A DNA stretch of 39,629 nucleotides from Marinitoga litoralis (GCF_016908145.1 NZ_JAFBDI010000021.1:1-39629), one strand, 5' to 3'. Positions 5,055 to 28,931 are shown, counted from the stretch's first letter. Numbers and translations are program-made. The notes: generated from the letters alone by a model not told the origin.

Positions 5055-5063
5055 AGAAAACAC

Positions 5064-5098: not shown

Positions 5099-5105
5099 GG
5101 ACTAT

Positions 5106-5134
5106 ATTATATATAATATTTATTATTTTTGAAA
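5106..5134 (-). promoter_or_regulatory. Putative promoter of queT
   Basis: Minus strand -10 TATAAT (5111-5106) lies 17 bases from a weak -35 TTTCAA (5134-5129). The expected start site near 5099 coincides with the first base pair of the riboswitch stem, which supports it. The -35 is a poor match. Confidence 0.5.
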
Positions 5135-5144
5135 TAAAAGTATG

Positions 5145-5336: not shown

Positions 5337-5355
5337 AGAATTACCTCCAAGACAT

Positions 5356-5390
5356 TTGATTTTTTACAATAAAGTATTATAATTATACCA
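5356..5390. promoter_or_regulatory. Overlapping divergent promoters for dnaB and the small membrane protein
   Basis: Plus strand: -35 TTGATT (5356-5361), 16-base spacer, -10 TATAAT (5378-5383), serving dnaB. Minus strand: extended -10 TGGTATAAT (5390-5382), serving the gene ending at 5145. The two -10 elements overlap by two bases, so simultaneous initiation should be mutually exclusive. Confidence 0.6.
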
Positions 5391-5415
5391 TATAGGATAA
5401 AAGGAGGTATTAAAT

Positions 5416-6813: not shown

Positions 6814-6823
6814 GAGGGAAAAA

Positions 6824-9019
6824 ATGGAAAAAAGTATAAAAGAAATAATTATAAAAATAATTAAAGAAAAACCATTGTTACAAAAGGAAATATATGACAA
6901 GTTAAAATTAAAAACCAAAGAAGAAAAAAGAAAGATAAGAAATATTTTAAATGAATTATTAGATGATGGAGAATTGTATAAAAACTCTAAAAATAAGTAT
7001 TGTATTCCTGGTAAAAATATGAAAATTGGAATTATTGAATTTACTAGAAGAGGTAGTATGGCATTTGTTACTACAAAAAATGGTGATGAAATAGCAATAA
7101 CATTGGAAAATGTGAAGGATGCTATGCATAAAGATTTAGTTTTAGTTGAAATAATAGGTAATTGGAGAGATTTACCAAAAGGAAAAGTTTTAAGAGTGTT
7201 AAAAAGAGGATTAAATAAGGTTGTTGGGATTTTTGAACAAAAAAAGCTTTTTGGTTTTGTATTACCAATTGATCAAAAAATAAATACAGATTTTTATGTA
7301 TCTCCTGAAAATTTCAACAAAGCCAAACCTGGCCAAATTGTAGAAGCTGAAATAATAAAATATACACACAAAAATCCTGAAGTAAAAATAACAAAAATAA
7401 TAGGGGATGTTAATGAACCTAAAGTGGATTTACCAATTGTAATTATTAAACACGATTTGCCAGAGCCTGGTATATTTCCTGAAAATGTAATGAAAGAAGC
7501 ATTGAAAATACCAAAAACTATACAAGAAAAGGATTTAAAAGGAAGGAAAGATTTTAGAGATGAAGTAATTGTTACAATTGATGGAGACACTGCGAAAGAC
7601 TTCGATGATGCAGTACAAGTAAAGAAATTGGAAAATGGCAATTATTTATTAGGTGTTCATATTGCTGATGTATCTCATTATGTTAAAGAAAATTCTAAAT
7701 TAGATAAGGAAGCATTTAAAAGAGGAACTAGTGTTTATTTGATTGATACAGTAATACCAATGTTACCTCATGAATTATCTGATTGGATATGTTCTTTAGT
7801 AGAAAATGAAGATAGATTAACTATGTCTCTTATTATGGAAATAGATAAACATGGTGATGTGGTAAATTATGATGTATATAATGGAGTAATTAGAAGTAAG
7901 AAGAGATTAACATATAATAAGGTAAATAAATTGTTAAACAATGAAGCAGATGAGGAGTTGGAAAAGGAAATAGGTTGGCTTAGACCTGATTTGGAATTAA
8001 TGAAAGAATTAATGGAAATAATTAGAGAAAATAGAAAAAGAAGAGGAGCTATATTAGATATAGAAGGTGGAGAAGTTAAATTTATATTTGATGAAAAAGG
8101 AAATGTTGAAGATATAATTCCTGTGGAAAGAGGTATTTCGGAAGTTATCATTGAAGAATTTATGATAAAAGCTAATGAAACTATAGCTTCAATTTTCGAT
8201 TCACAAGGTTTACCATTTATATATAGAATTCACGAAGAACCAGATCCAGATATGTTATTACAATTAAAAAACTATTTGGAGATAATGGGTTTGAAATATC
8301 GATTTCCTAAAAATATTCATCCAAAATTATTACAAGATATGTTGGAACATTTAAAAGATCATCCTTTGAAAAAAAGTATTCAAAAACTTCTAGTTAGATC
8401 TTTAAAAAGAGCTGTGTATTCAGATTTAAATGTTGGACATTTTGGATTAGCTTCTGAAAATTATACCCATTTCACATCACCTATAAGAAGATATCCTGAT
8501 CTAATAGTACATAGATTATTGAAAAAATATCTAAAAAATAACGGAACTTTAAGTAATAGTGAAATTGAAAAATATACAAAATTATTACCAGAAATTGCAG
8601 CGTATTCATCTAAGAGGGAAAGAGTTGCCAATGAAGCTGAATGGGATTTAGCTGATATGAAAAAAGTTGAATATATTATGAGCCACATGGATGAAATATT
8701 CGAAGTATTTATTACAAATATAACAAAATTTGGTATGTTTGCCGAAATCCCAGATAAATTTATTCAAGGTTTGATTCATGTTTCTACAATGGATGATTAT
8801 TATGTATATAATGAGAAACAGAATGTATTAATAGGTGAAAGAACAAAGAAGGTATATAGACTTGGAGATAAAGTAAAAGTTAGAGTGAAAAATGCAAATA
8901 AGTTAACAGCTGAAATAGACTTTGAAATAGTGAAAAAAGATGATGATAAACTAGAAAAAGAATTGAAAAAAATGTATCCAAATGCAAAAGTAAAGATTAA
9001 GAAAAAAAGAAAGAAATAA
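6824..9019 (+). CDS. rnr: Ribonuclease R
   Basis: Processive 3'-5' exoribonuclease of the RNase II/RNB family, which degrades structured RNA, about 731 residues. Order of domains: N-terminal winged helix (residues 1-60), cold-shock-type OB domains (about 65-210), the RNB catalytic domain with the metal-binding DGDTAKDFDDA cluster near residue 255 and GVHIADVSHYV, a C-terminal S1 domain (EVFITNITKFGMFAEIP) and a lysine-rich tail. I chose ATG 6824 because TAGGAGGG directly precedes it; the open frame upstream overlaps dnaB and lacks a ribosome binding site. It is probably co-transcribed with dnaB. Confidence 0.95.
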   Translation: MEKSIKEIIIKIIKEKPLLQKEIYDKLKLKTKEEKRKIRNILNELLDDGELYKNSKNKYCIPGKNMKIGIIEFTRRGSMAFVTTKNGDEIAITLENVKDAMHKDLVLVEIIGNWRDLPKGKVLRVLKRGLNKVVGIFEQKKLFGFVLPIDQKINTDFYVSPENFNKAKPGQIVEAEIIKYTHKNPEVKITKIIGDVNEPKVDLPIVIIKHDLPEPGIFPENVMKEALKIPKTIQEKDLKGRKDFRDEVIVTIDGDTAKDFDDAVQVKKLENGNYLLGVHIADVSHYVKENSKLDKEAFKRGTSVYLIDTVIPMLPHELSDWICSLVENEDRLTMSLIMEIDKHGDVVNYDVYNGVIRSKKRLTYNKVNKLLNNEADEELEKEIGWLRPDLELMKELMEIIRENRKRRGAILDIEGGEVKFIFDEKGNVEDIIPVERGISEVIIEEFMIKANETIASIFDSQGLPFIYRIHEEPDPDMLLQLKNYLEIMGLKYRFPKNIHPKLLQDMLEHLKDHPLKKSIQKLLVRSLKRAVYSDLNVGHFGLASENYTHFTSPIRRYPDLIVHRLLKKYLKNNGTLSNSEIEKYTKLLPEIAAYSSKRERVANEAEWDLADMKKVEYIMSHMDEIFEVFITNITKFGMFAEIPDKFIQGLIHVSTMDDYYVYNEKQNVLIGERTKKVYRLGDKVKVRVKNANKLTAEIDFEIVKKDDDKLEKELKKMYPNAKVKIKKKRKK

Positions 9020-9089
9020 AAAAAAGAAGAGCCGCACGGCATTCGCAACCGATGCGGCGGCCCCTATACCCCCCTAGGTATTTTTTTCA
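9018..9089 (-). ncRNA. Candidate small RNA, antisense to the rnr 3' end
   Basis: A GC-rich island in very AT-rich DNA. Read on the minus strand, an extended -10 (TGGTATAAT, 9104-9096) predicts initiation near 9089. The transcript would contain a small hairpin (ATACC/GGTAT), a G-rich stretch, and then a strong hairpin. In that hairpin GCCGCA (9058-9053) and CGG (9051-9049) pair with their complements at 9039-9031, with one bulged base. It is followed by TCTTC and eight Ts, a good intrinsic terminator. No convincing ORF fits; only an eight-codon one is present. The nearest minus-strand gene, perR, has its own terminator, so this hairpin is not explained as the end of perR. I do not recognise an RNA family. 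Confidence 0.45.
9066..9087 (+). terminator. Possible rnr terminator
   Basis: Plus strand: ATACC (9066-9070) pairs with GGTAT (9077-9081) over a CCCCTA loop, followed by seven Ts. The stem is short, but the stronger GC hairpin at 9031-9058 lies just upstream. Together they could end the dnaB-rnr transcript. Confidence 0.5.
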
Positions 9090-9095
9090 TTACAT

Positions 9096-9104
9096 ATTAT
9101 ACCA
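9096..9104 (-). promoter_or_regulatory. Extended -10 promoter for the candidate small RNA
   Basis: Minus strand TGG directly before TATAAT. No good -35 is seen (TTACTT at 16 bases is the best), which is tolerable for extended -10 promoters. The same TGGTATAAT motif precedes other genes in this window. Confidence 0.45.
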
Positions 9105-9157
9105 TAAAAATACAAAAAAGTAACAGTAAATCGCACATGTTCAAAAAAATGTAACAA

Positions 9158-9182
9158 AAAAACACCCTTATTGGGTGTTTTT
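9158..9182 (-). terminator. Terminator of perR
   Basis: AAAAACACCC (9158-9167) pairs with GGGTGTTTTT (9173-9182) across a TTATT loop. On the minus strand it is followed by a run of Ts. It overlaps the perR stop codon. Confidence 0.8.
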
Positions 9183-9612
9183 AAATTTCTTCATTTTCTA
9201 AGCATTCTTTACAAAAACCTTTTATATAGAACTGCTCATCAATTATTTTATTTTCTTTTTCTATTTTAGGATCTATTTTTATGCTTTCTACGTCAAAATC
9301 AAAAATTTTATTACAATTAATACATTTAAAATGTCCATGTATATGTGTGTTAATATCAAATCTTGCTTCATTTTCGTCTATAGTCAAAACGGAAACTAAC
9401 CCCTTTGATTGAAAAAGCTTCAATGTATTATATACAGTAGTTTTTGATAAAGTGGGGATAATATGAACCAAATCTTTATAAATTGTATCAACATTAGGGT
9501 GAGTGTGATTTTCTAATAAATATTTATACACTTGAATTCTTTGTAAAGAAGGAGAAATTCCATTTTCCCTTAATATCTCGCTAATATTGCTAATTTGATT
9601 TTTATCATTCAT
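9181..9612 (-). CDS. perR: PerR-type Fur family metal-dependent repressor
   Basis: DNA-binding metalloregulator of 143 residues. The winged helix covers about 8-80, and the dimerisation domain has two CxxC pairs (C97/C100 and C134/C137) for structural zinc. Aligned by eye with Bacillus PerR, all five regulatory metal ligands are present: H38, D86, H92, H94 and D105. The aspartate in KIFDF is typical of PerR rather than Fur, so a peroxide-sensing role is likely. I chose ATG 9612 because AAAGGG lies 9 bases upstream. A Per-box-like palindrome sits at its own start site, suggesting autorepression. No peroxide-defence gene is adjacent. Confidence 0.85.
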   Translation of the reverse strand: MNDKNQISNISEILRENGISPSLQRIQVYKYLLENHTHPNVDTIYKDLVHIIPTLSKTTVYNTLKLFQSKGLVSVLTIDENEARFDINTHIHGHFKCINCNKIFDFDVESIKIDPKIEKENKIIDEQFYIKGFCKECLENEEI

Positions 9613-9630
9613 ATAATCACACCCTTTCAA

Positions 9631-9649
9631 AATTAAAATCATTTTAATT
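9631..9649. promoter_or_regulatory. Per-box-like operator of perR
   Basis: A perfect 9-1-9 palindrome, AATTAAAATCATTTTAATT. Its core TTAAAATCATTTTAA differs from the Bacillus Per box (TTATAATNATTATAA) by one symmetric change per half. It lies just downstream of the perR -10, over the expected transcription start, a repressing position. Confidence 0.7.
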
Positions 9650-9657
9650 ATATATTT

Positions 9658-9686
9658 ATTATATACCTTTTTATTTAAAAATCCAA
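9658..9686 (-). promoter_or_regulatory. Promoter of perR
   Basis: Minus strand -35 TTGGAT (9686-9681), exactly 17 bases, -10 TATAAT (9663-9658). Start site expected near 9651, overlapping the palindrome. Confidence 0.75.
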
Positions 9687-9705
9687 ATTAATTTATTAAT
9701 ATTTA

Positions 9706-9714
9706 TGATATAAT
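9706..9714 (+). promoter_or_regulatory. Extended -10 promoter of the TPR protein gene
   Basis: TGATATAAT, an extended -10, lies about 35 bases before the GGAGGGG ribosome binding site of the gene at 9751. The -35 is weak (TTAATT). It is divergent from the perR promoter, whose -35 starts about 20 bases away, so PerR could influence both. Confidence 0.5.
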
Positions 9715-9750
9715 ATGTATATAATATGTTATAAATAAAGGAGGGGTAGA

Positions 9751-10461
9751 ATGAAGAGGCGAATTATTATATTATTTTTAGTATTAGCTTTTAGTTTTGT
9801 TTATGCAGAAGGTTTTACAAAATTATACGAAGAATTTAAGGTTATTAATAGTTATCATAATGTTGAGGGTATGAAAAGTTTATTAGGTAAATTAGAAAAA
9901 TATACTGACGATTCATCAATATTAGCATTATATTGTAATGCTCTAACAGAATATGCAAATTGGGGAGTTAAGGATGAAGAAAAAGAGAGTATTTATAGTA
10001 AAGCTGTAGAAATAGGCGAAAAAGCTGTATCTTTAGATCCTAATAATGGTTATGCTCACTATTCTTTAGGAGCAGCTATAGGTAGATTAGCACAATATAA
10101 AGGTATAGTTTCTAGTTTGTTTATGCTTGGAGATTTTGACGAACACATAAAAAAAGCAATTGAATTGGATCCAAGTTTATATACAGCATATATTGCAATG
10201 GGTATGAGATATAGAGATGTTCCGTGGCCAATGAATAATTATAAAAAATCCGAGGAATACTTTTTTAAAGCTGCTGAAATAGAGCCTGAATATGTAAATA
10301 CATACTATGAATTAGGGGTTTTATATAAAGTTTGGAAAAAATATGATAAAGCCAAAGATATGTTCGAAAAAGTAATAAAGATGCCGTTACATCCAGATTG
10401 GATCGAACAAGGGAAAGAAGCCAAAGAAAATTCAAAAAAAGAATTAAATGATTTAAAATAA
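9751..10461 (+). CDS. Secreted TPR-repeat protein
   Basis: A 236-residue protein with an N-terminal signal peptide (MKRRIIILFLVLAFSFVYA) and no lipobox cysteine, so probably periplasmic. The rest is alpha-helical with tetratricopeptide repeats: AVSLDPNNGYAHYSLGAA, AIELDPSLYTAYIAMG, and AAEIEPEYVNTYYELGVLYK followed by YDKAKDMFEKVIKM. Such repeats bind partner proteins; nothing shows which. GGAGGGG precedes ATG 9751 by 6 bases. The gene stands alone between divergent perR and a strong terminator. Confidence 0.8.
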   Translation: MKRRIIILFLVLAFSFVYAEGFTKLYEEFKVINSYHNVEGMKSLLGKLEKYTDDSSILALYCNALTEYANWGVKDEEKESIYSKAVEIGEKAVSLDPNNGYAHYSLGAAIGRLAQYKGIVSSLFMLGDFDEHIKKAIELDPSLYTAYIAMGMRYRDVPWPMNNYKKSEEYFFKAAEIEPEYVNTYYELGVLYKVWKKYDKAKDMFEKVIKMPLHPDWIEQGKEAKENSKKELNDLK

Positions 10462-10465
10462 TTAA

Positions 10466-10495
10466 AATGACTAGCAGCTAGCTAGTCATTTTTTT
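10466..10495. terminator. Bidirectional terminator
   Basis: Perfect 10-bp stem AATGACTAGC (10466-10475)/GCTAGTCATT (10481-10490) with a 5-base loop, then Ts on the plus strand. It overlaps the last codons of the convergent diguanylate cyclase gene, so the stem encodes part of that protein's C-terminus. Confidence 0.85.
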
Positions 10496-11929
10496 ATTCG
10501 AATGTTTCATGTTATATAAATTTTTATCAGCTAATTCATAATAATTCTTTTCATTAAAAGATGAAATACCGTAAGAAAAATCAAATCCAGTTTTTTCATT
10601 ATATATTTTTCTAATTCTTTCAATAATTTTTTTAATATTTTCTGAATCTGTAATTATAGCAAATTCATCTCCACCTAATCTAATAATATAATCGGTATTT
10701 CTTAAATTATTTTTTGCAATATCGACGAAATTTTTAAGTATTTCATCACCTTTTGAATGACCAAATTTATCATTTATCTTTTTTAAATCATCAATATCAA
10801 TTATTGCAAAATAGCCTTTGAATTTGTTATTCTCGAAAACATTTCTATTATATGCTCCAGTAAGTGGATCAATTAAAGCTTTATCTATTAGTATTTTATT
10901 TTTTTCTACTACATATTTATATTCTAATACAAGTGAAAAACCAAACCCTAAAGTTGCAGCTAAAACTCCATATCCAAAAATCAAAGGTTCATTTAATTTC
11001 AATAATAAAATTAATATAGAATGAATAGAAGTAATAGTTAAGAACGTTACAGGAAATAACAAATAAATATTTTTTGATTTAAAAATCCAATATGTAACAA
11101 TCATTAAGTTTGCCATTGCTATTAAGTTCAAATAATTAGTAAATAATTTTAGATAATAAAAGTTTGGCGATAAAAGAACTAAGAATATCGAAATCAAAGT
11201 AAAATAAACCATTATTTTCGATTTAATTCTATTAAAGAAATAATATTCAATTCCAATAAGAATTAATATACTACTTATAAAAAATGAAATCAAAAATATT
11301 TTTCTAAGAATAAATGCAAGCAAAAAACCTCCGTTATATAATCTACTAATAATGTCAAAAATATATATTCCTGCAAATAAAGAAGATAATCCAATGTATT
11401 TAAAATATTTTAAATTGTTATATCCTGAGATAATTAGTAATATTACCCCCAATACTATAGCTGCTCCTAAGGATATTAGATATATATTTTCATTAAGAAA
11501 ATTTAAAAAATAAACTTTTTTTATTGCAGTCATTCTATCTGTTAAAAATATTTTTTTATGAATTCCAATATCATATAATCCTTTTAATTTAATTTTTAGT
11601 TTGTTTTTTTCTTTTAATAAGTTCTTATCAAAAACTACATAAAAAGCCTTATTCCACAAACTTGAATATTTATAACCATTTTCATATATTAATACATCAT
11701 TTAAATAAACAGATATTTCATTATAGGATAATCTTGGAAATATAATTGAATCATAATCTGTTTTATCAAAAACTACTTCGAACTCTTTTTCTACAGGAGA
11801 TTTTGTAATTTCATAAAAAATAGGAAAATCCAAAAGATAACCTTTTGGAGAATAGGAATATTTAATTATATATAAAATAAACAAAAAAGATAAAATAGCT
11901 AATGAAACAATTAAAAATCTTTTTTTCAA
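10478..11929 (-). CDS. Membrane diguanylate cyclase, 7TM sensor plus GGDEF
   Basis: This protein probably makes cyclic di-GMP in response to an extracytoplasmic signal. After an N-terminal membrane anchor comes an external beta-rich region of about 125 residues, then about seven membrane helices (roughly residues 145-345), then a GGDEF domain. The layout resembles 7TMR-DISM receptors. The catalytic motif is intact (RLGGDEFAII), and an RNTD inhibitory I-site lies five residues upstream, so an active, feedback-inhibited enzyme is expected. The end reads YGIS, as in the family. I prefer TTG 11929, which has GGTGG 5 bases upstream; ATG 11941 overlaps murB and has no ribosome binding site. It is the last gene of the recN operon. 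Confidence 0.87.
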   Translation of the reverse strand: MKKRFLIVSLAILSFLFILYIIKYSYSPKGYLLDFPIFYEITKSPVEKEFEVVFDKTDYDSIIFPRLSYNEISVYLNDVLIYENGYKYSSLWNKAFYVVFDKNLLKEKNKLKIKLKGLYDIGIHKKIFLTDRMTAIKKVYFLNFLNENIYLISLGAAIVLGVILLIISGYNNLKYFKYIGLSSLFAGIYIFDIISRLYNGGFLLAFILRKIFLISFFISSILILIGIEYYFFNRIKSKIMVYFTLISIFLVLLSPNFYYLKLFTNYLNLIAMANLMIVTYWIFKSKNIYLLFPVTFLTITSIHSILILLLKLNEPLIFGYGVLAATLGFGFSLVLEYKYVVEKNKILIDKALIDPLTGAYNRNVFENNKFKGYFAIIDIDDLKKINDKFGHSKGDEILKNFVDIAKNNLRNTDYIIRLGGDEFAIITDSENIKKIIERIRKIYNEKTGFDFSYGISSFNEKNYYELADKNLYNMKHSNKKMTS

Positions 11930-11931
11930 AT

Positions 11932-12843
11932 TTACCACCATATTTCTGGTTCTATTTCTAAATCTTCACCATACTTTTCTTTAACCACTTTTTTAATTTT
12001 TTCAGCTAGATTAATAATATCTTCAAACTTAGCATTCCCTTTATTAATAATAAATCCAGCATGCTTATTAGAAACTTCAGCATCTCCAATAGAAAAACCT
12101 TTTAACCCTAATTTTTCAATTGTAGTACCAACATAAAAATCGGGTTTAGGTCTTTTAAAGAAACTGCCTGCACTAGGGAATTCTAAAGGTTGTTTTTCCC
12201 ATCTTTTTTCTGATAATTCTTTCATTTTATTTTTTATATTAGTTATATCTTTTTTATATAAATTTATTTTTGCGCTTAATGAGATATATCTTCTTTCTTG
12301 GAAAATGCTTTTTCTGTAATTGAAATTTAGTAATTCCTTCTTTAATATAATTGTTTTTCTTTCAATTATATCATAAGCTTCAACCTCAGTTACAATATCT
12401 GACATTTGCCCTCCATATGCTCCAGCGTTCATAAATAACGCTCCACCCAATGATCCAGGTATTCCTACAGCGAATTCTAATCCGGATAATGAATTCTCCA
12501 TTGCTATGTATGATAATCTTGAAATCGGAATTCCAACCTCGCTAATTAAGATATTTTCGTTTAAGGAATATCCTGTAAGATATTCAGTACTTAGAACAAC
12601 AAAATTCAAAGTATCATCGTTAATTAATAAATTGGCGCCACCGCCAATGATTTTAAAATTTATTTTATTTTCAATTATATAATCTAAAGTATTAATAAAA
12701 ATTTGTTTTGTTTTTGGAATTATATAATAAGGAGTAATACCACCAACTTTAATTGTGGTATGCATTTTTAAAGGTTCATTGATTAAAATAGTATTTCCCA
12801 GTGAATATAAATATTTCAAATCAATATTCACTTTAACATCCAC
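11932..12843 (-). CDS. murB: UDP-N-acetylenolpyruvoylglucosamine reductase MurB
   Basis: FAD enzyme that reduces UDP-GlcNAc-enolpyruvate to UDP-MurNAc in peptidoglycan synthesis, 303 residues. Visible motifs: TIKVGG near the N-terminus, the FAD-binding IIGGGANLLI, AVGIPGSLGGALFMNAGAYGG, the catalytic-serine PSAGSFFKRP, and the C-terminal HAGFIINKGNA. The size and lack of the extra loop fit the shorter type II MurB class. The start overlaps the HEAT gene end by 16 bases, with GGAG close upstream; a GTG at 12831 is an alternative. Confidence 0.94.
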   Translation of the reverse strand: MDVKVNIDLKYLYSLGNTILINEPLKMHTTIKVGGITPYYIIPKTKQIFINTLDYIIENKINFKIIGGGANLLINDDTLNFVVLSTEYLTGYSLNENILISEVGIPISRLSYIAMENSLSGLEFAVGIPGSLGGALFMNAGAYGGQMSDIVTEVEAYDIIERKTIILKKELLNFNYRKSIFQERRYISLSAKINLYKKDITNIKNKMKELSEKRWEKQPLEFPSAGSFFKRPKPDFYVGTTIEKLGLKGFSIGDAEVSNKHAGFIINKGNAKFEDIINLAEKIKKVVKEKYGEDLEIEPEIWW

Positions 12844-13442
12844 TCCAACATTTCAGAAATTTCTTCTCCAGCTGGATGTTTTTTCACATCATTTATTAAG
12901 TCTCTTTTTTTAAATAATATTTTTTGAATAGAATCTAAAATTAAAGCTTTTTCTGATTTTGAAATATTAGTTATATATTTATCCAAAAGATATTTTAGTC
13001 CTTTTTGAGTAGGTAATTCAGATATTGCCATGATTGCTAACTCTTGTAAGTCTCCGGTGTCATCTAAAAATGTAGCAAGTATATCTATATATTTTTCATC
13101 TTTTGTTAGTCTTAATAAAGCTTCTAAAATCAAAGGGAATGCTCTTTCATCAGAATACATATTTAGCATTCGTTCTAAATATGGAATTAATTCCTTACAT
13201 TCTAAGTTAGATAAGACATCAATTAAATAGAGCATTACAACATCATCAAAAGAATTTTTTTCAAATCTTTTCATAAATTCATTGAAAAGATATTTTTTTG
13301 CATCTGATCCTAAAATATCAATTATATCTGTTATTATTTCATAAGTTTCTGTATCTGCGTCTTCCATCATATCTATTAAAATCGGAATTGCATTAACTCC
13401 TTTTTCTTCAAGTATCCTTTGGATAACATCTTCTCTTTTCAT
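12828..13442 (-). CDS. HEAT-repeat protein, unknown function
   Basis: A 204-residue, acidic, all-helical protein with repeated amphipathic pairs of HEAT type (for example GVNAIPILIDMMEDADTE, CKELIPYLERMLNM, YIDILATFLDDTGDLQELA). No signal peptide or membrane segment is present, so it is cytoplasmic. I do not recognise a specific family. Its ATG overlaps the recN stop (TAATG), with GAGGTGG upstream, and its end overlaps murB, so it is translationally coupled to both. A scaffold role is likely but unproven. Confidence 0.8.
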   Translation of the reverse strand: MKREDVIQRILEEKGVNAIPILIDMMEDADTETYEIITDIIDILGSDAKKYLFNEFMKRFEKNSFDDVVMLYLIDVLSNLECKELIPYLERMLNMYSDERAFPLILEALLRLTKDEKYIDILATFLDDTGDLQELAIMAISELPTQKGLKYLLDKYITNISKSEKALILDSIQKILFKKRDLINDVKKHPAGEEISEMLEWMLK

Positions 13443-16873: not shown

Positions 16874-19516
16874 TTATTGTATTTCAATAATAATATGGTA
16901 TTCAAATGAAGTATTTTCTGACCAGTAATATATAACTAATTCAATAAGGTATAAGCCTGGAGTATCAAAAAAGCTTGCAGGAATTAAATATGAGTTATCA
17001 TACATATCAAAATTTGAATTATCATAATCATCAGCAACTCTAATTCTATTTTCCCAATCAAAATCTCCAGTAAAATCATCAAATTTAAATATATTAATTT
17101 CAGCTCCTTCATAATAAGGTAATGTGTTATTAGGTATATACCATGTTAGTTGAATATTATCTCCTAAATTAAAAAAGTCATTATTTAGAGGACTGTTTAT
17201 TTCAAAAGTGTCAACAGGATACAATGTACCTAAATATAATGCGGCAGAATCAACAAGGGTATTAGAATAATCATAAACTTCCAGAGTATAATCACTATTT
17301 TCAAGATAAAAAGTATCTGCTATATCAAAATATTCTTCATTATAAAAATAATCTTCTTCTACCCAGTTTAAATCTGTTATATAATCATTATCCCTCCATA
17401 TCTCAGCATAATAGACGTTTTCAGGATTTGAAATATGAGAATCAAATCTTAGAGCAATTTCTGGATATACATCACCATATTCATCGGGTATTGGTATTCT
17501 TGTAATTCCCTCCATTTTGAAATCGATAATATGAGCATTTGTAGAAGGTAATTCGGGAGGTTGAAAAATGTCAGGATTCTCTATTATTATAGGATTTTGA
17601 ATTCCACTAACTAGATCTCCAAAATAGGGATCTGGAAGATCAAATGTTATTTTACTTATTTCAGGAGTATCACTATTAAGAGTTCCTTCCAGGGTTATAT
17701 CTGGTAAATAATTCCTTAGATCTTCGAAATTTGCAGAACTTTCAAAGAACACAGCAGGATATATCATTATAGGCCCGCCAAGGCTAACAGGAGTATTAAT
17801 ATCTGTCATAAATAATTTTGTAATTTTACTACCTGATAATTCCCATAATTCCATTAAATCTATAGGACCAGATGTAGGATCATGTGGGATATATAAATAA
17901 TCAGTAATAGAATCATCTATAGCATATTTTATTGGAATGTCTAATGTAATAAATGAATTTTGTATAGAAGCAACTCGGGTTTCAAAATCGTTTTCTGCAG
18001 TTAACATATTTCCAAAAATATTTCCAATTAATTCTTTTTGAGTAATAATATTATCATCTTTTGCCATATTTAATAATAATTCAGTAATAGATGCATCAAG
18101 TGAATAATTTTCAAGTATATCTATAACTGTTGCTGTAGGAGTAAGATTATATAAGAAAAGCATATTTCCATACCCGTATATATATTTTAAGATGAAATCT
18201 AACATAGAAACAAATCCCTCATCAATTAATAAATAATCATTTTCGTCGAATACAGATGCATATCCGTTTGTTACTGTACCATCATCACTTAATTGCTCTA
18301 CTAAATCCCAATCTAAAATAGCATCACCAGGAGTATCGGAGTCAATACCAATGAATTCAATATTTTCTATATTAGACATATCACCTAATATTAAATCGGA
18401 GTATACTCCTAAACTTTCTTTTTGTACAGTATTATCCATATAAGTTACTGTGGCTTCTATATGTAGTTCGGCGTTATTTGTTATTATTCCATCATTATTC
18501 CAATCAAAATCGTTTATCATCCATTTTATATTTTCATATAGATAATCGTTCAGTTGCAATTTTTCTGCGTAATCACCCAATTTTTCTAAAAGAGTTAATA
18601 TATCATTTTTAAAATCTGTAGGTATATTTATTAGGCTTAATAACACTCCATTAAGATCTTCACTGTTTAATGCCTCTAAAATAGAAAAGATATAAGCTTC
18701 ATGAGTTGAAAAAGTATTAGATAAATTATGTATAAAGTTAGGAATATCAGTTAAGAAATATGCTATATTACTATACGTTGGTGTTGAAATTGAATTTGGT
18801 ATAGTAGAAGAATTTATAGTTATAGTGCCAAGAGGTGTTTCGAAATTTATATTTTTACCATAATTAGCTGTAAATATTGAAAAATCTATAATATTAACAT
18901 TCCAATCTTCTAATTTATAATCATAAATATCAGACCATATTCCTTTTTGAGAAATATTTAATGCAGGGCCAATATCAAATCTTGAAAATTCTTCAGAGAC
19001 ATCATAAATCCACGGTTCCATACCATAATAATATACAAAAGAAGCAAAATCTGTTAAACCAACTTCTCCATCTAAATTAAAATCTCCTAGAAGTCCTCCC
19101 CATTTCCAATTATATGGGTTAATATCATAATATTCTTTTGTAATGGAATTTCTTGAATAATAATCTATTTTTTCAATATTAAAAGAATTAGAATAGATTT
19201 TTAATAAAACATCGCCTGGTTTTACACTATCTGCAGTAGAAATTGCTACTATTGGGTTTCCATCTTTGTTTTTTGTTATACTCATAAATTTATTTGGAAT
19301 TTCAATATTTTCTGCGTCAACGTTGCTCAAAAGAAATTCAAAAGAATCACCCTCAACCTTAGAAATTATTAAAGAATTGTTGTTTTCCTTAATTATATCA
19401 ATAATATTTTTTATTTCTGTGTTTGTTTTAGTTTCATGTGTCTTTGTTTGTAGACAGCCAACTAATATAATTGATATTATCAATATACTTAAAATTATTT
19501 TTATATATTTTCTCAT
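16874..19516 (-). CDS. Large lipoprotein with dockerin-like repeats and C-terminal Ig/Fn3-like domains
   Basis: An 880-residue surface lipoprotein: lipobox ILVGC with cysteine 21, then a small domain (about 57-110, SFEFLLSNVD to PGDVLLKI). Next is a dockerin-like region with a good first calcium loop (GDFNLDGEVGLTDF, 145-158), a conserved DIGPA, and a degenerate second loop (about 200-220, DWNVNIIDF). A region of about 400 residues that I do not recognise follows, with anchors NDYLLIDEG, PHDPTSG, LPDI and FDLPDPYFG. The C-terminal third holds beta-sandwich repeats (SPLNNDFFNLGDNIQLTWY). It is a paralogue of the N-terminal half of the gene at 19530-24152, and AGGGGGGTGA precedes its ATG. It lacks a cohesin-like end. 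Function unknown; a surface assembly role is inferred. Confidence 0.82.
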   Translation of the reverse strand: MRKYIKIILSILIISIILVGCLQTKTHETKTNTEIKNIIDIIKENNNSLIISKVEGDSFEFLLSNVDAENIEIPNKFMSITKNKDGNPIVAISTADSVKPGDVLLKIYSNSFNIEKIDYYSRNSITKEYYDINPYNWKWGGLLGDFNLDGEVGLTDFASFVYYYGMEPWIYDVSEEFSRFDIGPALNISQKGIWSDIYDYKLEDWNVNIIDFSIFTANYGKNINFETPLGTITINSSTIPNSISTPTYSNIAYFLTDIPNFIHNLSNTFSTHEAYIFSILEALNSEDLNGVLLSLINIPTDFKNDILTLLEKLGDYAEKLQLNDYLYENIKWMINDFDWNNDGIITNNAELHIEATVTYMDNTVQKESLGVYSDLILGDMSNIENIEFIGIDSDTPGDAILDWDLVEQLSDDGTVTNGYASVFDENDYLLIDEGFVSMLDFILKYIYGYGNMLFLYNLTPTATVIDILENYSLDASITELLLNMAKDDNIITQKELIGNIFGNMLTAENDFETRVASIQNSFITLDIPIKYAIDDSITDYLYIPHDPTSGPIDLMELWELSGSKITKLFMTDINTPVSLGGPIMIYPAVFFESSANFEDLRNYLPDITLEGTLNSDTPEISKITFDLPDPYFGDLVSGIQNPIIIENPDIFQPPELPSTNAHIIDFKMEGITRIPIPDEYGDVYPEIALRFDSHISNPENVYYAEIWRDNDYITDLNWVEEDYFYNEEYFDIADTFYLENSDYTLEVYDYSNTLVDSAALYLGTLYPVDTFEINSPLNNDFFNLGDNIQLTWYIPNNTLPYYEGAEINIFKFDDFTGDFDWENRIRVADDYDNSNFDMYDNSYLIPASFFDTPGLYLIELVIYYWSENTSFEYHIIIEIQ

Positions 19517-19529
19517 ATCCTCACCCCCC

Positions 19530-21821
19530 TCACTCTGAAGTTACATTGAGAATATTTTCTATTTCAAGTATTACAGGCGCAATATTGTCTTCAAAAGTTA
19601 CATAAGCATCAATAATGTTTATATTAGTGTTTATATTGGTATATGTGGAGTTTATTGTAAATTTAGCTATATCGGTATTTGATAAATCTAAATTGTTATT
19701 AGAATAAAGTGAGATAATAACTTCTAAGTAATCTTCATTATACCAATCATCATATCTCATAAAAGATTTGATAAAACCATTATCTGAGTTAAGTAGTATA
19801 GAACTAGAATCAATACTTATAGTTTCAGGATCTATTCTTAAATGTATTTCTAAACCTTTAACATTATTGATGTCAGGACCTCTGGTTCTTATAATAAAAG
19901 TCGATTCTTCAGATAAATTTATTTTTTCTTTATCAAAAAATACAAAATTTCCATATAAAGTATTGTCATAATAGAATGATTTAACAGGAGATATTATTTT
20001 GTTTTCTCCATCATCGGCAATTATTGCATAATAGTAAATATCATCAAAATATTTATCATTAAATAATTCCCACATTTCTAATTCTACAAGAGAACCTGAA
20101 GGATAAATTAAGTCATTTTCAAAAGGATTTGGTAATACAAATATTTCTCCCCAAGAACTCATTAATAATATATTATATCTTATATCTGAATTACTTAAAC
20201 TTGTAGCTACAAAAGAAATAGTATCAAGTGGAGTAACTCTTTCTTTATCTGTTGGACCAGTAACATCTAATTCAATATTTTGATTATTTAATATATTGAA
20301 GCTCCTTATAGGTGATTGATAATCTATATTATTTTCATAATCATAAGTATGGATTCTCCATAAATAAATCCCGTTTTTTAATTCAAGTGAGTAAAAATTG
20401 TTTGGGGTATAATCTATTTCTTCTATATATCCTTGTGCTGAATCTAAAAACATATTTGCTGGAACAAAATTAAATGAATAACCATCGATGTTTTCTACAT
20501 TACTCCATGAGAAATCAATTTTTGTATAAATATTATTTGACAAAATAACTTCACCATTTAAAGGAGCATATATACTTATTTCATTTTCTTCAGGAGGAGA
20601 CCACCAATCTTTTATTTCAAAATTGAATGTTGCACTAACAATTTCATTACTAGAATTTTTTAAATACCAATAATAAACTCCAGGATTTTCAAAGGTTACA
20701 GAAGTCCAATTATCACTATTAGTTATTTCGGAATATATAATATTATCATTTTCATCTTTTACTTCAAAAATCAGATCATCCAAGTATTCTGTTTTAAATG
20801 AGTTAGTATGCCAACCGAATGAAATAGTGTAATAATCAAATGTGGACATTGGTTCAGGGTAATCTAATAATACATCAAAAGGTGTTGAGTTAACAAATAA
20901 CCATCTATGTTCTGTTTCTTCATAATTATAACTATTTTCGTCTTGAGAAGTAATAATCCACCATTTATAAATGTTATCTGGCAAGGTTAATGAATAATTA
21001 AATGTCATTTCTCCAGTAATAGGATCTGTATCTGTAGAATAATCAGTTGGAGTAATTAAAGTATCATATGTCTCTTCCCATGTATCAATAGGTCGAATAT
21101 GTAATTCAAAATCACCTGCGTAATCTGGATCATATCCCCATATGAATTTTATGTTGTTAGTGGTTGTGGATTCACCATCTAAAGGATGAATTAAGTGTAA
21201 TTCTATGAATTGAATTTCTTCACCAATATAAAAGTTCCATATTGGACTTTCAGTATAATTAACATCATCTAAATAAGCACGTACTTTCCATTCATAAGAT
21301 TTATTAGGGGCAAATCCTAGAATAAGAGCTTCCGCTTCATAATTTCCAAATTCATCCATCCAATACACATCAATATTGGTTGTTGATTGCCACGTCTCTG
21401 TTCCTTCTTCTCTGTAATACAATTCAAAAATATCATTTGAGGCTTTTTCAGTATGTAAATTATTAACTCCCCATGAGAAATATATATCAGCTGATTGAGT
21501 TCCTGGAAGCACTGGAATGTAACCAAATGGTTCTAAAGGATAGAAATAAGAAAATTCGGAAACTTCTCCAACTTTAAATTCATTATAATTACTATTAATT
21601 TCAATCGTTTCAAATGTTTCTGGATCTGTATAATATCCATTAACCCACCAACCATATTTACCATTATCTAAAGATATTGATGTTGATTCATCCGAAAGGA
21701 TATATTCATAGTAATTCCATGGTTCAGTTAGTTGCTCAATATATAATATATAATAATCAGCATTTATACGATTTTCAATACCATTATTGTGGAAGAATGT
21801 TTCCCATTCAAAGGTTACTGT
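19530..21821 (-). pseudogene. C-terminal half of a split giant lipoprotein: Fn3-like repeats plus cohesin-like domain
   Basis: This frame is the direct continuation of the gene at 21822-24152 past one in-frame TAA. Translation continues without interruption (TVTFEWETFFHNNGIEN onward) to 19530. No ATG or TTG with a ribosome binding site follows the TAA; the first possible start is a bare GTG at 21512, so independent translation is unlikely. The about 760 residues contain five or more Fn3/Ig-like repeats (LIHPLDGESTTTNNIKFIWG, SIYAPLNGEVILSNN, TGPTDKERVTPLDTISF). The last about 135 residues resemble a cohesin (NVKGLEIHLRIDPETI, LSNTDIAKFTINST). There is no signal peptide of its own. Either a nonsense mutation, a sequencing error or stop-codon read-through applies. 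Confidence 0.75.
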
Positions 21822-24152
21822 TTAAGGAACATCTTCGTAAAAATCGCCATTTATTGGTGTAATAAGATTTATATAATAGAAAGTATCTTCTAAAAATACA
21901 CTAAACCAATATGGGTTTTCTGGATATATTTTTTCAATCTTTCCATTACCAAAATCAGCATATCCTATAACTGCCCAGAAGTAATCACCTTCATCTAATT
22001 CCAGAGTTATTTGAGTGTTTGAAGTTTTGGAAAAAATAAGCAAATCTTGGGAAGATATATTACCTTCTATATAATTCCATACATTTTCTTCGTTTCTATC
22101 AACTATTAATTCATATGTTATAGTTGCATTTAAATCTGTAGAAGGGTACCATTTAAATGTGACTGAAGTTCCAATAATAGTAACATCTTCTTGATAAATA
22201 AAATACTCTTCTTTTCCAAAATCTTCTAGGTTTACAGTGAATGTTGAATCGAGTCCGGAAATTAATCCATTAAAAGTTGGATCAGGTAATTCTATTAAAA
22301 GATTAGTAGAATCATATGTAGAAATGAGAGAAATATCAGGGAGAAAAATGTTTAGATCTGAAAAATCTTCTGGATTGTTGAAAAATACACTTGGATGTAA
22401 TGTAAAATATTTATTATATTCAATTGAAATATCAAAGCCATCAGATGGGTTATTTATTAAATTAGCCATTTTTTCTGTTTCGTGTAATAAATTCATTGAC
22501 ATTTCAAAATCATTTTTGAGAATAGGAGGTTTTTCTCCAGAGGTAGGATCATGTGGTTGAAAAATATAATCCATAATCTTATCTTCGAATAAAATTTTAA
22601 TTAAATCATGTAAAGAGGAGAGGTCGTTTTTTATGTGATTAATTAACTCAATAGATTTTGCGTTATCTTTAAACTTTAGCATATTTCCAAAGATTGATGT
22701 TTGTAGTTCGCTGCCTAATATTTTTTGAGAATCTGAAGGTGGAGGATTTTGTAATAAAGTCATTAAAAGCTCAGTTATATATTGTGTTAAATCTTCATTG
22801 TTATTAATAGCATTTTTTATATTAATTGAAGGATCATTTAAATCATAAATGAATAAGGCTTTCCCAATAATTCCAATAATTTTTGTTAATATGCTCATTC
22901 CAGCAGCGCTGCCTTCATCAATTAATAAATAGTCATTTCCATCAAATTCAGGAGTATAATTTCCATCGATATTATCAAAAGACATTTCATAATCAAATAT
23001 AGCATCGCCTCCAGTTTGATCAATTTCAATTGACTTAGGAGGGTCATCTAAGGTAAAAATATCATAGAAAGGAATTGAGATATTTGAACCATCATAAGTT
23101 ATAACTTTAAATTTTAAAGGAGAAGTATTTTCATTATTGCCATCTAAATCCCAATCAAAATTATTGATTTCATATTTCAAATCATAATATAAATATCCAT
23201 CTTTAACATTTCCTATAAGATCTGAAAAGTTATTTATATCTTCTATAATATTTAAAATAGCTGTTTCTGTGGCATCAGATATATTGATTAAATATTTTAG
23301 TAGTGCTGATGGTGAAGAGTTTTCTGTCGTTAAAAGATTTATTAAATCGCCGTTTTGAGAAATAAAATTTGAAAATTCCGTATAAATATCATATATTCTC
23401 ATGAGTCCACTGATAACATTCATTTCTGTCTCATCAGATATTGTTGATGGATCAGTATTACTGTTTACAACAATAGTTGATTGTGGAGAGGAAACATCAA
23501 TACTATAATTAGCTGCAAAAATAGAAAAATCAGCTAACCCAATTTCTCCATCTGGTTGTGCTAAATCAAAAATATTGTTCCAAATACCTTTATGAGAATA
23601 ATTAATAGCGGGGCCAATATCAACTAAATCAAAATCTTTTAAATTTCCATAAAAATCATTTCTTTTTAAACCGTAGAAATATGTAAATGAAGAAAAATCA
23701 GTAATATCAACTTTTCCATTAAAATTAAAGTCACCAAGTAATCCATACGCTAATCCTTTATCATAATAATCAATATATTTTTTTACTGCATTTCGATTAT
23801 ATGTATTAATATCAATAATTTTAAAGTTTGTTTTTTTAATTTTTAGAAGTGTATCGCCTTTATTTATAATAGTAGGAGAAGAAATAGCAATTTTCAAATT
23901 TTTATTGTTTTTAATAATTTTCAGAAATTTTGGATTTATATCTATTTCATTTTCATTTACATTTTCCAAAATAAATTCAAAAGAATCAGCTTCAATGTTT
24001 GATTTTATTATTGTTTCATTTTGAAGTTTCTCTATAGCTATTGAATTTAAATTTTGTTCTGTAGCTATATTATTTGATTTATTAAAATTAAAACAAGAAG
24101 TAAAAATAAATATGATTAAGATAATAATTATAAACAAATAATATTTTCTCAT
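21822..24152 (-). CDS. Dockerin-like giant lipoprotein, N-terminal half, ended by an in-frame TAA
   Basis: A 776-residue ORF with lipobox IFTSC (cysteine 20), the SFEFILENV to KGDTLLKI domain (about 57-105), and a complete pair of dockerin-like calcium loops: GDFNFNGKVDITDF (140-153) and AQPDGEIGLADF (198-209), with DIGPA between them. It shares with the 16874-19516 protein the unrecognised middle region (NDYLLIDEG, FGNML, PHDPTSG, LPDISL, ELPDPTF). It ends inside a beta-sandwich repeat (TPINGDFYEDVP, then stop). The full gene would be 24152 to 19530, about 1540 residues. AAGGGGGTGA lies before the ATG, 13 bases after the preceding cohesin-like gene. Confidence 0.8.
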   Translation of the reverse strand: MRKYYLFIIIILIIFIFTSCFNFNKSNNIATEQNLNSIAIEKLQNETIIKSNIEADSFEFILENVNENEIDINPKFLKIIKNNKNLKIAISSPTIINKGDTLLKIKKTNFKIIDINTYNRNAVKKYIDYYDKGLAYGLLGDFNFNGKVDITDFSSFTYFYGLKRNDFYGNLKDFDLVDIGPAINYSHKGIWNNIFDLAQPDGEIGLADFSIFAANYSIDVSSPQSTIVVNSNTDPSTISDETEMNVISGLMRIYDIYTEFSNFISQNGDLINLLTTENSSPSALLKYLINISDATETAILNIIEDINNFSDLIGNVKDGYLYYDLKYEINNFDWDLDGNNENTSPLKFKVITYDGSNISIPFYDIFTLDDPPKSIEIDQTGGDAIFDYEMSFDNIDGNYTPEFDGNDYLLIDEGSAAGMSILTKIIGIIGKALFIYDLNDPSINIKNAINNNEDLTQYITELLMTLLQNPPPSDSQKILGSELQTSIFGNMLKFKDNAKSIELINHIKNDLSSLHDLIKILFEDKIMDYIFQPHDPTSGEKPPILKNDFEMSMNLLHETEKMANLINNPSDGFDISIEYNKYFTLHPSVFFNNPEDFSDLNIFLPDISLISTYDSTNLLIELPDPTFNGLISGLDSTFTVNLEDFGKEEYFIYQEDVTIIGTSVTFKWYPSTDLNATITYELIVDRNEENVWNYIEGNISSQDLLIFSKTSNTQITLELDEGDYFWAVIGYADFGNGKIEKIYPENPYWFSVFLEDTFYYINLITPINGDFYEDVP

Positions 24153-24165
24153 ACATTCACCCCCT

Positions 24166-26156
24166 TTATTCTGAGATGGTAACTGCTATTGAGTCACCAA
24201 CTGAGAATAATATTTCAGTTTCATTTTCTCCAAACATATATGTAGATTTTTCAAATTTAATTTTTGTTTCTCCAATATTAATAGTTGAGAACTTTATATC
24301 TATAATATCTTCTGGCAAAATAAAATTATTACCTTTTGATATTGCACTAAAAATAAATTCATTATGATCGTTATATTCATTAATTTTTTTGATTATATGG
24401 AAATCGTTATTATTAAATTTATCATCAGGGATACAATCATTTATATTTATATTAATAAATTGAGGATTATAGGAAAATCTTATATCGAAGCCATAAATAT
24501 TTGTATTAAGAGAAGTTTTAATTTTAAATTGGTAATCAGAATTTGGTGTTGCAATAAGATTTTCTGGTTCAAAATATAAATCAGGTAGAGTACCTTCTTC
24601 TTTTTTTATAAATTCAAAACTCCAAATTGGTCCTAAAACTTCATACATATTATCTTTAGCAACTATTCTCCAGTAATATGTAGATGAATAATCTAATTCA
24701 ATATTTTCTAAGTATTTGTTACTTAAATTAAACTTGGTATATTTATTTTGAACAAGATTTTCTACATCCGATTTAACATCAGAAATATAGAAGTTGAAGT
24801 TTAAAGGAGTACCTTCTGGATCATAAGCTTTCCATTCAAAAGATACAGTAGTTCCAACAACAGTAGGGATATCAGGTTTATGATAATCATCTATAACTGG
24901 AGGTTTGTTTTCTGAAATGATTGTAATTTTTCTCAGTTCACTTTTTATAGGAGGATTAACCTTATCAGATACTGTAACATTCCAATAAAAATCTCCAGGT
25001 TCAGAGAATTTGTAGTTATAAGATAATACTTTACTTTGATTATCATCAAGATTTAAAACTTCATTTAAAGTTGTTTCTGATTTCCCAATATTAAGAATAT
25101 AATTTAAGGTTGAATTATCCGTATCAGTAGCTATCCAACTAAACGTTATATTGTTTGTAGTAAAAGTTTTATTATTTTCAGGTGAAATTAATGAAATGGT
25201 AGGGAGATTATTTTTTGGAGGTATATAAGCAAATGAAGCTATTTTTGATTCAGATATTTCTTTTGAATCATTTGCAAGAACTTTCCAATAATATGTTCCA
25301 GTAGAAGATAATGAATATTTAATAGAATAGCTAGTATAATTTGAAATAATATTTGAAAGTGAATTTGGAGATTTGCCAATAAAGACATCAAAAGTTAGTG
25401 GTCTTTATCTATATCCGAGGCTTCCCAAGATAATGTTACTAAGGATTTATCAATTATTGTATTAATAGGATAAATTAATGAAATAGTAGGCTTATGATTA
25501 ATTGTAGAGTCATATGTTGGATCATAATAAAATCTTGGAGCTTCTAAAACCATAATTTTATGATCAATATTGGGTTCATCCCATAATTCTATTTTCCATT
25601 GATATTGTCCTTTTATTTCAGGTTCGTATGTATAAGTGTTTTGGGTTATTGGTGATGAATTTAATTTAAAAAATTCATTTCCGACATACTTTAAATAAAT
25701 ATTATAAAAAATAGTGTCTTTTTCAATGTCATTTGCGCTCCATCTAAAAATAACATCTTTTTCTTTAACAATCTCATTATCAACAGGAGAAACGTAATTC
25801 AAAAAGGTTGGAGGATTATTTTCTGCTTTATCTAATAGAATGTTTATTTTTCTTTCTTCATTTGCATATACTTTTGTACTTCCAGTTTTTGGTAAATAAT
25901 TTAATTTAGATACTTCATAATTGTATTCACCTTCATTTCCAATAAACTTGTATTGACCATTTTCATCCGTAGATGCAGTAACTTTTAACTGTCCATTCTG
26001 TGTAATTTTTATTTGTGCCCCTATTATTGGTTCTTCTGTGACACTATCTTTTACAATAAAAATTAAAGTTCCTTCTGTAGCATCTTGCAGTCTTTCGCAC
26101 GAAAAAAGAAAAATAATAATTAATATAGAAAAAAATAGAAATATTTTTTTACCCAT
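24166..26156 (-). pseudogene. Fn3-repeat lipoprotein with C-terminal cohesin-like domain, split by a one-base frameshift
   Basis: First gene of the cluster. ATG 26156 follows AAAGGGGTGA and starts a lipoprotein (lipobox FLFSC, cysteine 20). A carboxypeptidase-regulatory-like beta domain comes next (GTLIFIVKDSVTEEPIIGAQ, then DENGQYKF), then four Fn3-like repeats ending in YQWKI, YYWKV, FYWNV and YYWRI. The last about 140 residues are cohesin-like (NIYGFDIRFSYNPQFI, DIIDIKFSTINIGETKI). The frame stops at 25395 within repeat two. Adding one C near 25400 turns the DKDH stop into DKDPLTFDVF and restores an open frame to 24166, giving about 663 residues. I translated most of 24780-25395 by eye and saw no further stop. 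It may be a real frameshift or a GG/GGG sequencing error. Confidence 0.8.
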
Positions 26157-27132: not shown

Positions 27133-27166
27133 TAAAAACAGGAGCCGACAGGCTCCTGTTTTTATT
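27131..27166. terminator. Bidirectional terminator between flagellin and the PEPCK-like gene
   Basis: A perfect 16-bp stem (27131-27146 with 27151-27166) around a GACA loop, core ACAGGAGCC/GGCTCCTGT, with A and T tracts as flanks. It overlaps the stop codon of the minus-strand gene. Confidence 0.92.
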
Positions 27167-28931
27167 ATTGTTCATTTATTAATTTTAATAAAGCTTTTGC
27201 AGCTAAAATTGGTCCATCTTCTTCGAATCCTTGAATTCCTAATTGTGTCTTTATTTCTCCAACTTTTACATTAGTTTTTATCATTTGTTCTAAGAATTTA
27301 TTTGCAATAATTTCATGTTTTTCTTTTCTTTGAACTGCACCAAAAGGATTTGCAAAATAACTATAAGTAAGTCCTACTTCAGCAGTAGTACCCTTTGCCA
27401 TCCTAGCGCCTTTAGCAAATATTTCATATGCTGTTTTACAATTATCATAAAAAGTCAAATAATCATCATTTTCAACTTTTGTATAATTATTAGCATATAA
27501 GAAATAATCAATTTTAGTTGGTTTAATTATTTCCTTATAATTTGAATATGGAACAATAACTCTAGCATTATTTTCATTTGGATTCATAAATATACTTCTA
27601 TCTATTGCAGAATAAGCATATCCTGGTTGTAAATCATCTAATCTTACAAATGCTCCAGTTTCTGTACCAAAAGCTACAACGTTACCATTTGAGTCTATTT
27701 CTAAAGAACCCATATCATCTATTAAAATATTCACTTCAGAAACTTCTTTTGAAAGTCTGTTTAAAGCGTCTAGGGTTTCAGATTTTCCAGCTCCACTATC
27801 TCCCATTAACATTACATTTGCTTTTTTCCCATTTCTTAAGATGATTTCTGCTAACGCTCCGTGAATTGGAAGATTTCCTTCATCAATTACTTTTAAATTA
27901 TGATTTGTTAATATCATTTTTTTCATATACCCAAAATAATCTAGTTCATCATCTCTTCCTAAAAGACTTATATAGGTTCCATCTTTTTCTTTGTATATAA
28001 CCCCACTTTTATATTCAGGGTTCTCAAAAAATTTATCTTCAAGTCCAAAGAAATAAATTCCATCTGGTTTCTTTTTTTGAACAACACCAAATCCTGTTAA
28101 TTCGAATAAATTGGTTAGACCAGCTGCCATAGCTAAATATTCCTTATATACATATACTAATAGATAATTTTTTCCAACATGGATTGGGAAAGCAAACCAA
28201 TCATTAGGATTTTCTAACTCTATTTTTTCTAAAATAGGGGAATCAATTACTTTAAATATTCCCTTTCTTTTGTTTGATTTGGTATAAAAAATAACTGGAG
28301 GTTCAAAAACTACTCCCCAAACAAATGGAACTTTGTATAAACTGTCTGCCCCATTTAATATATTCTCTTCAAATTTAGGGTAATCAATAGAAAATGCAAC
28401 TTGTGCTGCACTTGGTAATTGCCTTAACACTTTAAGTCTATCATCAGAAATATTTATTAATATTTGCCTATAAAAATTAGTAATTAAACTTTTTAAATCT
28501 GTATTATTTTTTATTAAAATCATCTCTTTGTATATCTTTTTTATTCCATTAGCTACAAAATCATTTCTTTGAATCATAAATCTATGCTTATTTCTCCATA
28601 AATTATAAATACTTTCAACAAATTTTGTGATTTGATCCTTTTTATCACTTAATTTTGGGAAACTGTAAAAAGGCGATGCATCTATTTCATCTATTTTTTC
28701 AGCAGACAAAGCAAATAACATTTTTATTATTTGATCAATATCATATCTATCTTCAACCTCGACAGCATCTTCATTTTTTAAAAAGTTAGAAAAAAATGTA
28801 ATTAAACTTTCTTTTCTTTCTTCTAAATCAGTTAAATATTCTATTATTAAATTTCTTAATATATTACTATGAATAATTTGAGCATTTGATAAATATGAAA
28901 CATTACCGTTAATTAAAACTGTTCTAGACAT
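27165..28931 (-). CDS. P-loop protein of the PEPCK/HPr-kinase-like superfamily, unknown substrate
   Basis: A 588-residue soluble protein. Its C-terminal half carries a P-loop (MLMGDSGAGKSETLDAL, about residues 368-384) followed by an acidic motif (ILIDDMGSLEID), a combination seen in HPr kinase and ATP-dependent PEP carboxykinase folds. The N-terminal 350 residues are not recognisable as classical PckA, and the overall length and order differ from canonical PEPCK. Proteins of this kind are often annotated as PEP carboxykinase; I would leave the substrate open. AAGGGGTGA precedes ATG 28931 and an extended -10 lies upstream. It is monocistronic. Confidence 0.65.
   Translation of the reverse strand: MSRTVLINGNVSYLSNAQIIHSNILRNLIIEYLTDLEERKESLITFFSNFLKNEDAVEVEDRYDIDQIIKMLFALSAEKIDEIDASPFYSFPKLSDKKDQITKFVESIYNLWRNKHRFMIQRNDFVANGIKKIYKEMILIKNNTDLKSLITNFYRQILINISDDRLKVLRQLPSAAQVAFSIDYPKFEENILNGADSLYKVPFVWGVVFEPPVIFYTKSNKRKGIFKVIDSPILEKIELENPNDWFAFPIHVGKNYLLVYVYKEYLAMAAGLTNLFELTGFGVVQKKKPDGIYFFGLEDKFFENPEYKSGVIYKEKDGTYISLLGRDDELDYFGYMKKMILTNHNLKVIDEGNLPIHGALAEIILRNGKKANVMLMGDSGAGKSETLDALNRLSKEVSEVNILIDDMGSLEIDSNGNVVAFGTETGAFVRLDDLQPGYAYSAIDRSIFMNPNENNARVIVPYSNYKEIIKPTKIDYFLYANNYTKVENDDYLTFYDNCKTAYEIFAKGARMAKGTTAEVGLTYSYFANPFGAVQRKEKHEIIANKFLEQMIKTNVKVGEIKTQLGIQGFEEDGPILAAKALLKLINEQ

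Follow-up and report, generated by a model that had tools for sequence, protein, structure and literature searches.

In clostridial and ruminococcal cellulosomes, adaptor scaffoldins such as ScaC of Ruminococcus flavefaciens and ScaB of Acetivibrio cellulolyticus carry a dockerin and a cohesin on one protein, linking an anchoring protein to further subunits. Here, we describe a locus of the heat-loving bacterium Marinitoga litoralis that encodes a protein of the same make-up, the ‘extender’, between two others that we call the ‘anchor’ and the ‘cap’. The locus lies on a 39,629-nucleotide contig (GCF_016908145.1, NZ_JAFBDI010000021.1), referred to as the window and numbered C21 among the 87 contigs of the draft assembly (genome G000, 2.29 Mb). 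Unlike adaptor scaffoldins, the Marinitoga proteins come without enzymes or a cellulose-binding module, all are diderm lipoproteins, and their dockerins are N-terminal and lipid-proximal. On balance, we favor a reading in which they constitute a non-cellulosomal, all-lipoprotein cohesin-dockerin system that would form a calcium-dependent, lateral daisy chain of three proteins.

Cohesin-dockerin proteins outside cellulosomes are known in archaea (Archaeoglobus fulgidus, ANME) and bacteria (PMC9012536). The archaeal systems resemble ours in combining cohesin and dockerin without cellulases and in placing dockerins on transport-binding proteins, as we find in one other genome (G004), but ours is bacterial, would join lipoproteins in three steps, is encoded by a conserved operon and includes a middle domain of an unnamed family. 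The Clostridium perfringens modules that give the best fold matches to the extender’s C-terminal domain (2vo8 and 2jh2) link secreted glycoside hydrolases, whereas we recognize no catalytic domain here. OmpA1 (Omp-alpha) of Thermotoga is an envelope spacer, perhaps in the same compartment (PMC3387000), but it consists of a coiled coil and an SLH domain rather than cohesin and dockerin. A cellulosome was itself considered and rejected, because no glycoside hydrolase or cellulose-binding module was found in the three proteins or the homologues scanned, nor any multi-cohesin scaffoldin. The literature searched, which had the 2009 survey of non-cellulosomal modules outside its scope, described no conserved three-lipoprotein chain in Thermotogota and no paper on a Marinitoga cohesin and dockerin. 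This is consistent with a preliminary description of the locus, which knew of no described system of such a layout in this group.

A conserved operon and its cohesin and dockerin modules

The anchor (24166-26156), extender (19530-24152) and cap (16874-19516) frames are consecutive on the minus strand, each has a strong ribosome-binding site, and the gaps between them are ~10-15 bp. A signal peptide and lipobox begin all three proteins and every orthologue whose sequence includes the N-terminus. Pfam and BLAST identify the repeats as Fn3/Ig-like, and scans against Pfam and NCBIfam recognized no catalytic domain in anchor, extender or cap. On each of these points (three consecutive minus-strand genes, a lipobox apiece, Fn3-like repeats, no recognized catalytic domain) the preliminary description was correct. 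It had also proposed searching related genomes for the same gene order, and we find the operon intact, as anchor, extender and cap, in three genomes of the same genus (G022, G023 and G026; genomes other than G000 are numbered G004-G048). There, the anchors have 664-666 residues, the extenders 1542-1544 and the caps 872-882. A fourth relative, G024, also has the operon, with assembly-type breaks. In the relatives that carry it, the operon lies between a phosphate-transporter/DUF47 pair and the gene for a flagellin. As the layout recurs in these four genomes between the same flanking genes, it is not due to chance.

The modules that would join the three proteins are as follows:

24169..24588, minus strand: anchor C-terminal cohesin (PF00963 19.4-19.8 bits, below the cut-off of 24.1)
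19533..19973, minus strand: extender C-terminal cohesin (AlphaFold2 and Foldseek)
23502..23744, minus strand: extender dockerin, loop 1 DFNFNGKVDITD, loop 2 DLAQPDGEIGLAD (alignment, PDB profile matches, hhalign)
18857..19096, minus strand: cap dockerin, loop 1 DFNLDGEVGLTD, loop 2 DYKLEDWNVNIID (alignment, Pfam score, PDB profile matches, hhalign)

Cohesins in the operon occur one to a protein. The AlphaFold2 model of the extender’s C-terminal domain reached a predicted local distance difference test (pLDDT) score of 82.5 and a predicted template modeling score of 0.81, from alignments that were shallow (4 rows). In a Foldseek search, all 28 PDB hits with E<=0.001 were cohesins; the C. perfringens modules ranked best, and the A. 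fulgidus cohesin 2xdh was also present. From this model, we are confident that the domain has the cohesin beta-sandwich fold. The anchor orthologue in G024 scores 23.6 bits with PF00963. At a second locus of G000, on contig C35, a 1638-aa lipoprotein ends in a cohesin that passes the cut-off (29.5 bits), and its Fn3 repeats (fn3 score 99.7 bits) match the anchor repeats by BLAST (E 4e-19). Judged by homology, the anchor’s C-terminal domain is a cohesin. Thus, the cohesin-like C-termini of the preliminary description are upheld, by structure prediction and Foldseek for the extender and by homology for the anchor. The Pfam check that it suggested succeeds for the C35 paralogue but not for the window’s own copies, as the anchor falls below the gathering score and the extender has no PF00963 match.

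One stretch of 80 residues is common to the extender and cap: its first calcium loop is canonical, its second loop is 13 residues long, and a DIGPA motif is inserted. The first loop has 12 residues (D-x-N/D-x-D/N/S-G-x-V-x-x-x-D), precedes a predicted helix and, by sequence, is conserved in 9 of 9 extender and cap rows; the invariant D196, D201 and D208 are kept in the second-loop region. A profile built from 14 such regions was compared with the PDB, where at least 11 of the 13 matched sequences were dockerins (best E 0.009). Using hhalign, we also compared it with five cellulosomal dockerins, for three of which the stretches compared were checked residue by residue against PDB entries. The two aligned with both loops in register (P 1.2e-5, score 31), and none of 40 column-shuffled controls scored above 15.8. 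By profile comparison, then, the calcium-loop pairs of the extender and cap are related to cellulosomal dockerins.

Paired cohesin and dockerin genes across the Thermotogota

We screened 38 genomes of the Petrotogales, the order that includes Marinitoga. Of these, 16 have the dockerin profile, and the 12 with the cohesin profile are all among them, although these are not 12 independent events because the genomes are related. Every inspected cohesin-ended lipoprotein gene with a visible neighbor adjoins a gene for a dockerin lipoprotein. Such pairs make up the window-type operons, the C35-type loci, and loci in G027 (contig C3), G024 (contig C9), G004, G006 and G010, and, outside the Petrotogales, in G043, G044 and G048; they are thus seen in Marinitoga, Kosmotoga-like and Mesotoga-like genomes and in two more families. 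The C35-type pair is tandem in five Marinitoga genomes and convergent in G000, while in G026 the copy lies at a contig end, with its neighbor outside the sequence. C-terminal cohesins and dockerins number ~1:1 per Marinitoga genome, and the dockerin profile is found in 35 of 103 Thermotogota genomes. This phylum-wide, conserved gene pairing supports the prediction that cohesin and dockerin lipoproteins are co-encoded partners.

The cargo of the dockerin proteins varies, and includes a family 5 solute-binding protein and leucine-rich repeats (G004), a caspase-like peptidase (G043), and PQQ and LVIVD propellers. The G004 locus (G004:C1, L033:961-4335 and 4367-13150) encodes cohesin-dockerin lipoproteins with a family 5 solute-binding domain at their end; the leucine-rich repeats belong to one of 2928 aa. 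At G043:C17 (L130:6052-10803), a short gene for a cohesin lipoprotein precedes one whose dockerin lipoprotein product includes a caspase-like peptidase C14 domain. Proteins of ~900 aa in other Thermotogota families (L133:2787-5531, L134:5510-8290) have a C-terminal dockerin-like region, without a lipobox and with no recognized cohesin neighbor. The convergent pair at G000:C35 (L032:1273-9587), tandem elsewhere, points to either an inversion or a misassembly.

Loss and interruption of the operon

The closest relative of G000, judged by a flanking gene (27165-28931, 92.5% identity), is G027, and the two group together in the tree. At its operon site (G027:C28, L141:1509-2339), all that G027 encodes is a lipoprotein of 277 aa that joins a lipobox to the C-terminal tail of the cap. 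The anchor, the extender and the cap dockerin are all absent, and this joint absence is what would be expected if these parts work together. What has been kept, the cap tail, appears to be the functional end.

The preliminary description took the genes of the window as open. This did not hold, as two of the three are interrupted:

25398-25404 (near), minus strand: frameshift lesion in the anchor gene (frame open in G022, G023 and G026)
21822-21824, minus strand: in-frame TAA stop in the extender gene (a single open frame of 1542-1544 aa in G022, G023 and G026)

As sequenced, neither cohesin of G000 shares a polypeptide with a signal peptide. Programmed frameshifting and stop read-through were rejected as explanations because the frames of G022, G023 and G026 are open without either. 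Since two genes are interrupted, the chain is probably not made in G000, unless the assembly is wrong at the lesions. We put slightly short of an even chance on the operon in G000 being a decaying remnant without current function, a reading that is compatible with a lateral chain in other species. Two of the three genes carry lesions while the flanking genes are open, and the sister genome G027 lacks nearly all of the operon. However, the ratio of nonsynonymous to synonymous substitution (dN/dS) is 0.19-0.37 across the interrupted genes and is still low, at ~0.22-0.37 relative to the relatives, for the codons beyond the lesions; the lesions would therefore be recent or assembly errors, and in a draft assembly (87 contigs) sequencing error is possible. 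Together, the loss in G027 and the pair of lesions in G000 suggest that the chain is disappearing from this sub-clade.

A predicted lateral chain and its alternatives

The remaining parts of the three proteins are listed below:

26097-26156, minus strand: anchor signal peptide and lipobox FLFSC (lipobox scan)
25833-26054, minus strand: anchor carboxypeptidase-regulatory-like domain (PF13620 40.5 bits, cut-off 32.3)
25398..26156, minus strand: first part of the anchor, with its first Fn3/Ig-like repeats, ending at the frameshift (compared with the intact orthologues of 664-667 aa)
24598..25401, minus strand: second part of the anchor, with the remaining Fn3/Ig-like repeats, in the other reading frame (Big_7 26.5 bits, cut-off 24.1)
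24093..24152, minus strand: extender signal peptide and lipobox FTSC (lipobox scan)
23790..24047, minus strand: extender N-terminal beta domain, placed like an X module (homology to residues 37-122 of the cap)
22233..23480, minus strand: extender middle domain, Asp-rich, ~415 aa, of an unnamed family (common to the cap and a stand-alone Mesotoga-like lipoprotein)
19977..22205, minus strand: extender Fn3-like repeats, interrupted by the TAA at 21822-21824 (BLAST to the anchor repeats, E ~1e-8)
19454..19516, minus strand: cap signal peptide and lipobox LVGC (lipobox scan)
19151..19408, minus strand: cap N-terminal beta domain, placed like an X module (homology to the extender, AlphaFold2, Foldseek)
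17573..18835, minus strand: cap middle domain, of the same family as the extender’s (homology)
16877..17542, minus strand: cap C-terminal Fn3-like tail without a cohesin (the sole part kept in G027)

An X module precedes some dockerins, which is the position of the N-terminal beta domains here. In the cap model, this region has a pLDDT of mostly 57-84, and the best Foldseek matches of the model, not localized within it, are cohesin-like modules (E 6e-3). The Asp-rich middle domain has no relative in Pfam, NCBIfam or the PDB; it stands alone in Mesotoga-like lipoproteins (L036:393-2210, L037:3732-5552).

The dockerins of the extender and cap lie ~120 residues from the lipid, and the cohesins start ~500 (anchor) and ~1,400 (extender) residues from theirs. 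For the binding of cohesins to dockerins, its order, its geometry and the role of the cargo, we infer the following arrangement. The distal, C-terminal cohesin of the anchor would bind the extender dockerin, and the distal cohesin of the extender would bind the cap dockerin, resulting in a calcium-dependent daisy chain of three proteins. Given a predicted lipid at the N-terminus of all three proteins, with the dockerins close to it, the most likely course of the chain would be sideways along a single face of a membrane, beneath or within the toga; the long Fn3 arms would each arch over to the base of the following protein. As cargo, the cap tail and the two middle domains would do the actual work, probably in a structural or ligand-binding role.

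The preliminary description instead proposed a surface chain of anchor, extender and cap. Its partner order agrees with the fold, profile and gene-pair evidence, but its outward geometry, with the anchor alone bound to the membrane and the extender and cap stacked outward, is weakened by three lipoboxes and lipid-proximal dockerins. Although the gene order and domain order would suit such a stack, good lipoboxes are present in all extender and cap orthologues, the dockerins are near the lipid ends, and three lipid anchors would not be needed; outward stacking is therefore disfavored, and we consider it highly improbable. In Escherichia coli, retention of lipoproteins in the inner membrane follows a rule based on the residue after the lipid cysteine. 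This residue is D or E in 5 of 5 anchors and hydrophobic in extenders and caps, which is reminiscent of that rule and would fit an anchor held in the cytoplasmic membrane. Its arm would cross the periplasm, and its distal cohesin would catch the lipid-proximal dockerin of a toga-held extender or cap, a geometry that also fits. In Thermotoga, the distance from the cell body to the toga, ~50 nm, is spanned by a rod protein (PMC3387000). However, a search of the G000 genome found no match to LolA, and so no known outer-membrane lipoprotein route; the E. coli sorting rule may therefore not apply. Moreover, cohesin-ended proteins at other loci are without the acidic residue. We regard such a tether as unlikely for this operon, and as a shade more doubtful when put as a calcium-dependent lipoprotein cohesin-dockerin link between cytoplasmic membrane and toga outer membrane in Thermotogota.

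Several observations weigh against the lateral chain. The second loop is non-canonical, with 13 rather than 12 residues and a loop spacing of 54-55 rather than 32, so that of the dockerin-like calcium-loop pair in the preliminary description, the first loop and the profile relationship stand while the second loop is atypical. With PF00404, the check suggested there, the window dockerins score 12.3-13.6 bits against a cut-off of 22.9; on the other side, homologous dockerins score 23.1 and 22.9, and the former, with homology at E ~1e-10, passes the cut-off. The full-cap AlphaFold2 model has a pLDDT of 39, too low to confirm the fold of the dockerin or the middle domain. The anchor and extender cohesins are only ~20-24% identical, making the specificity of each pair uncertain. 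The sub-threshold Pfam scores and the atypical second loop and spacing would also be expected if the modules were structural only, as calcium-stabilized stalk segments and beta-sandwich adhesin ends that do not bind each other. This we find distinctly unlikely, as the gene pairing is conserved across genera with counts near 1:1, and the parts were lost jointly in G027.

Non-cellulosomal cohesins and dockerins have long been catalogued without a function, and the conserved gene pairs of Thermotogota supply them with defined partners. The range of cargo carried on this plug and socket is widened to a peptidase, a solute-binding protein and propellers. If the tether were true, Thermotogota would have an alternative to the coiled-coil spacer of the toga that is both modular and reversible. 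With a three-step chain, natural loss variants and an unusual outer envelope, the pairing, topology and role of these lipoproteins are directly testable.

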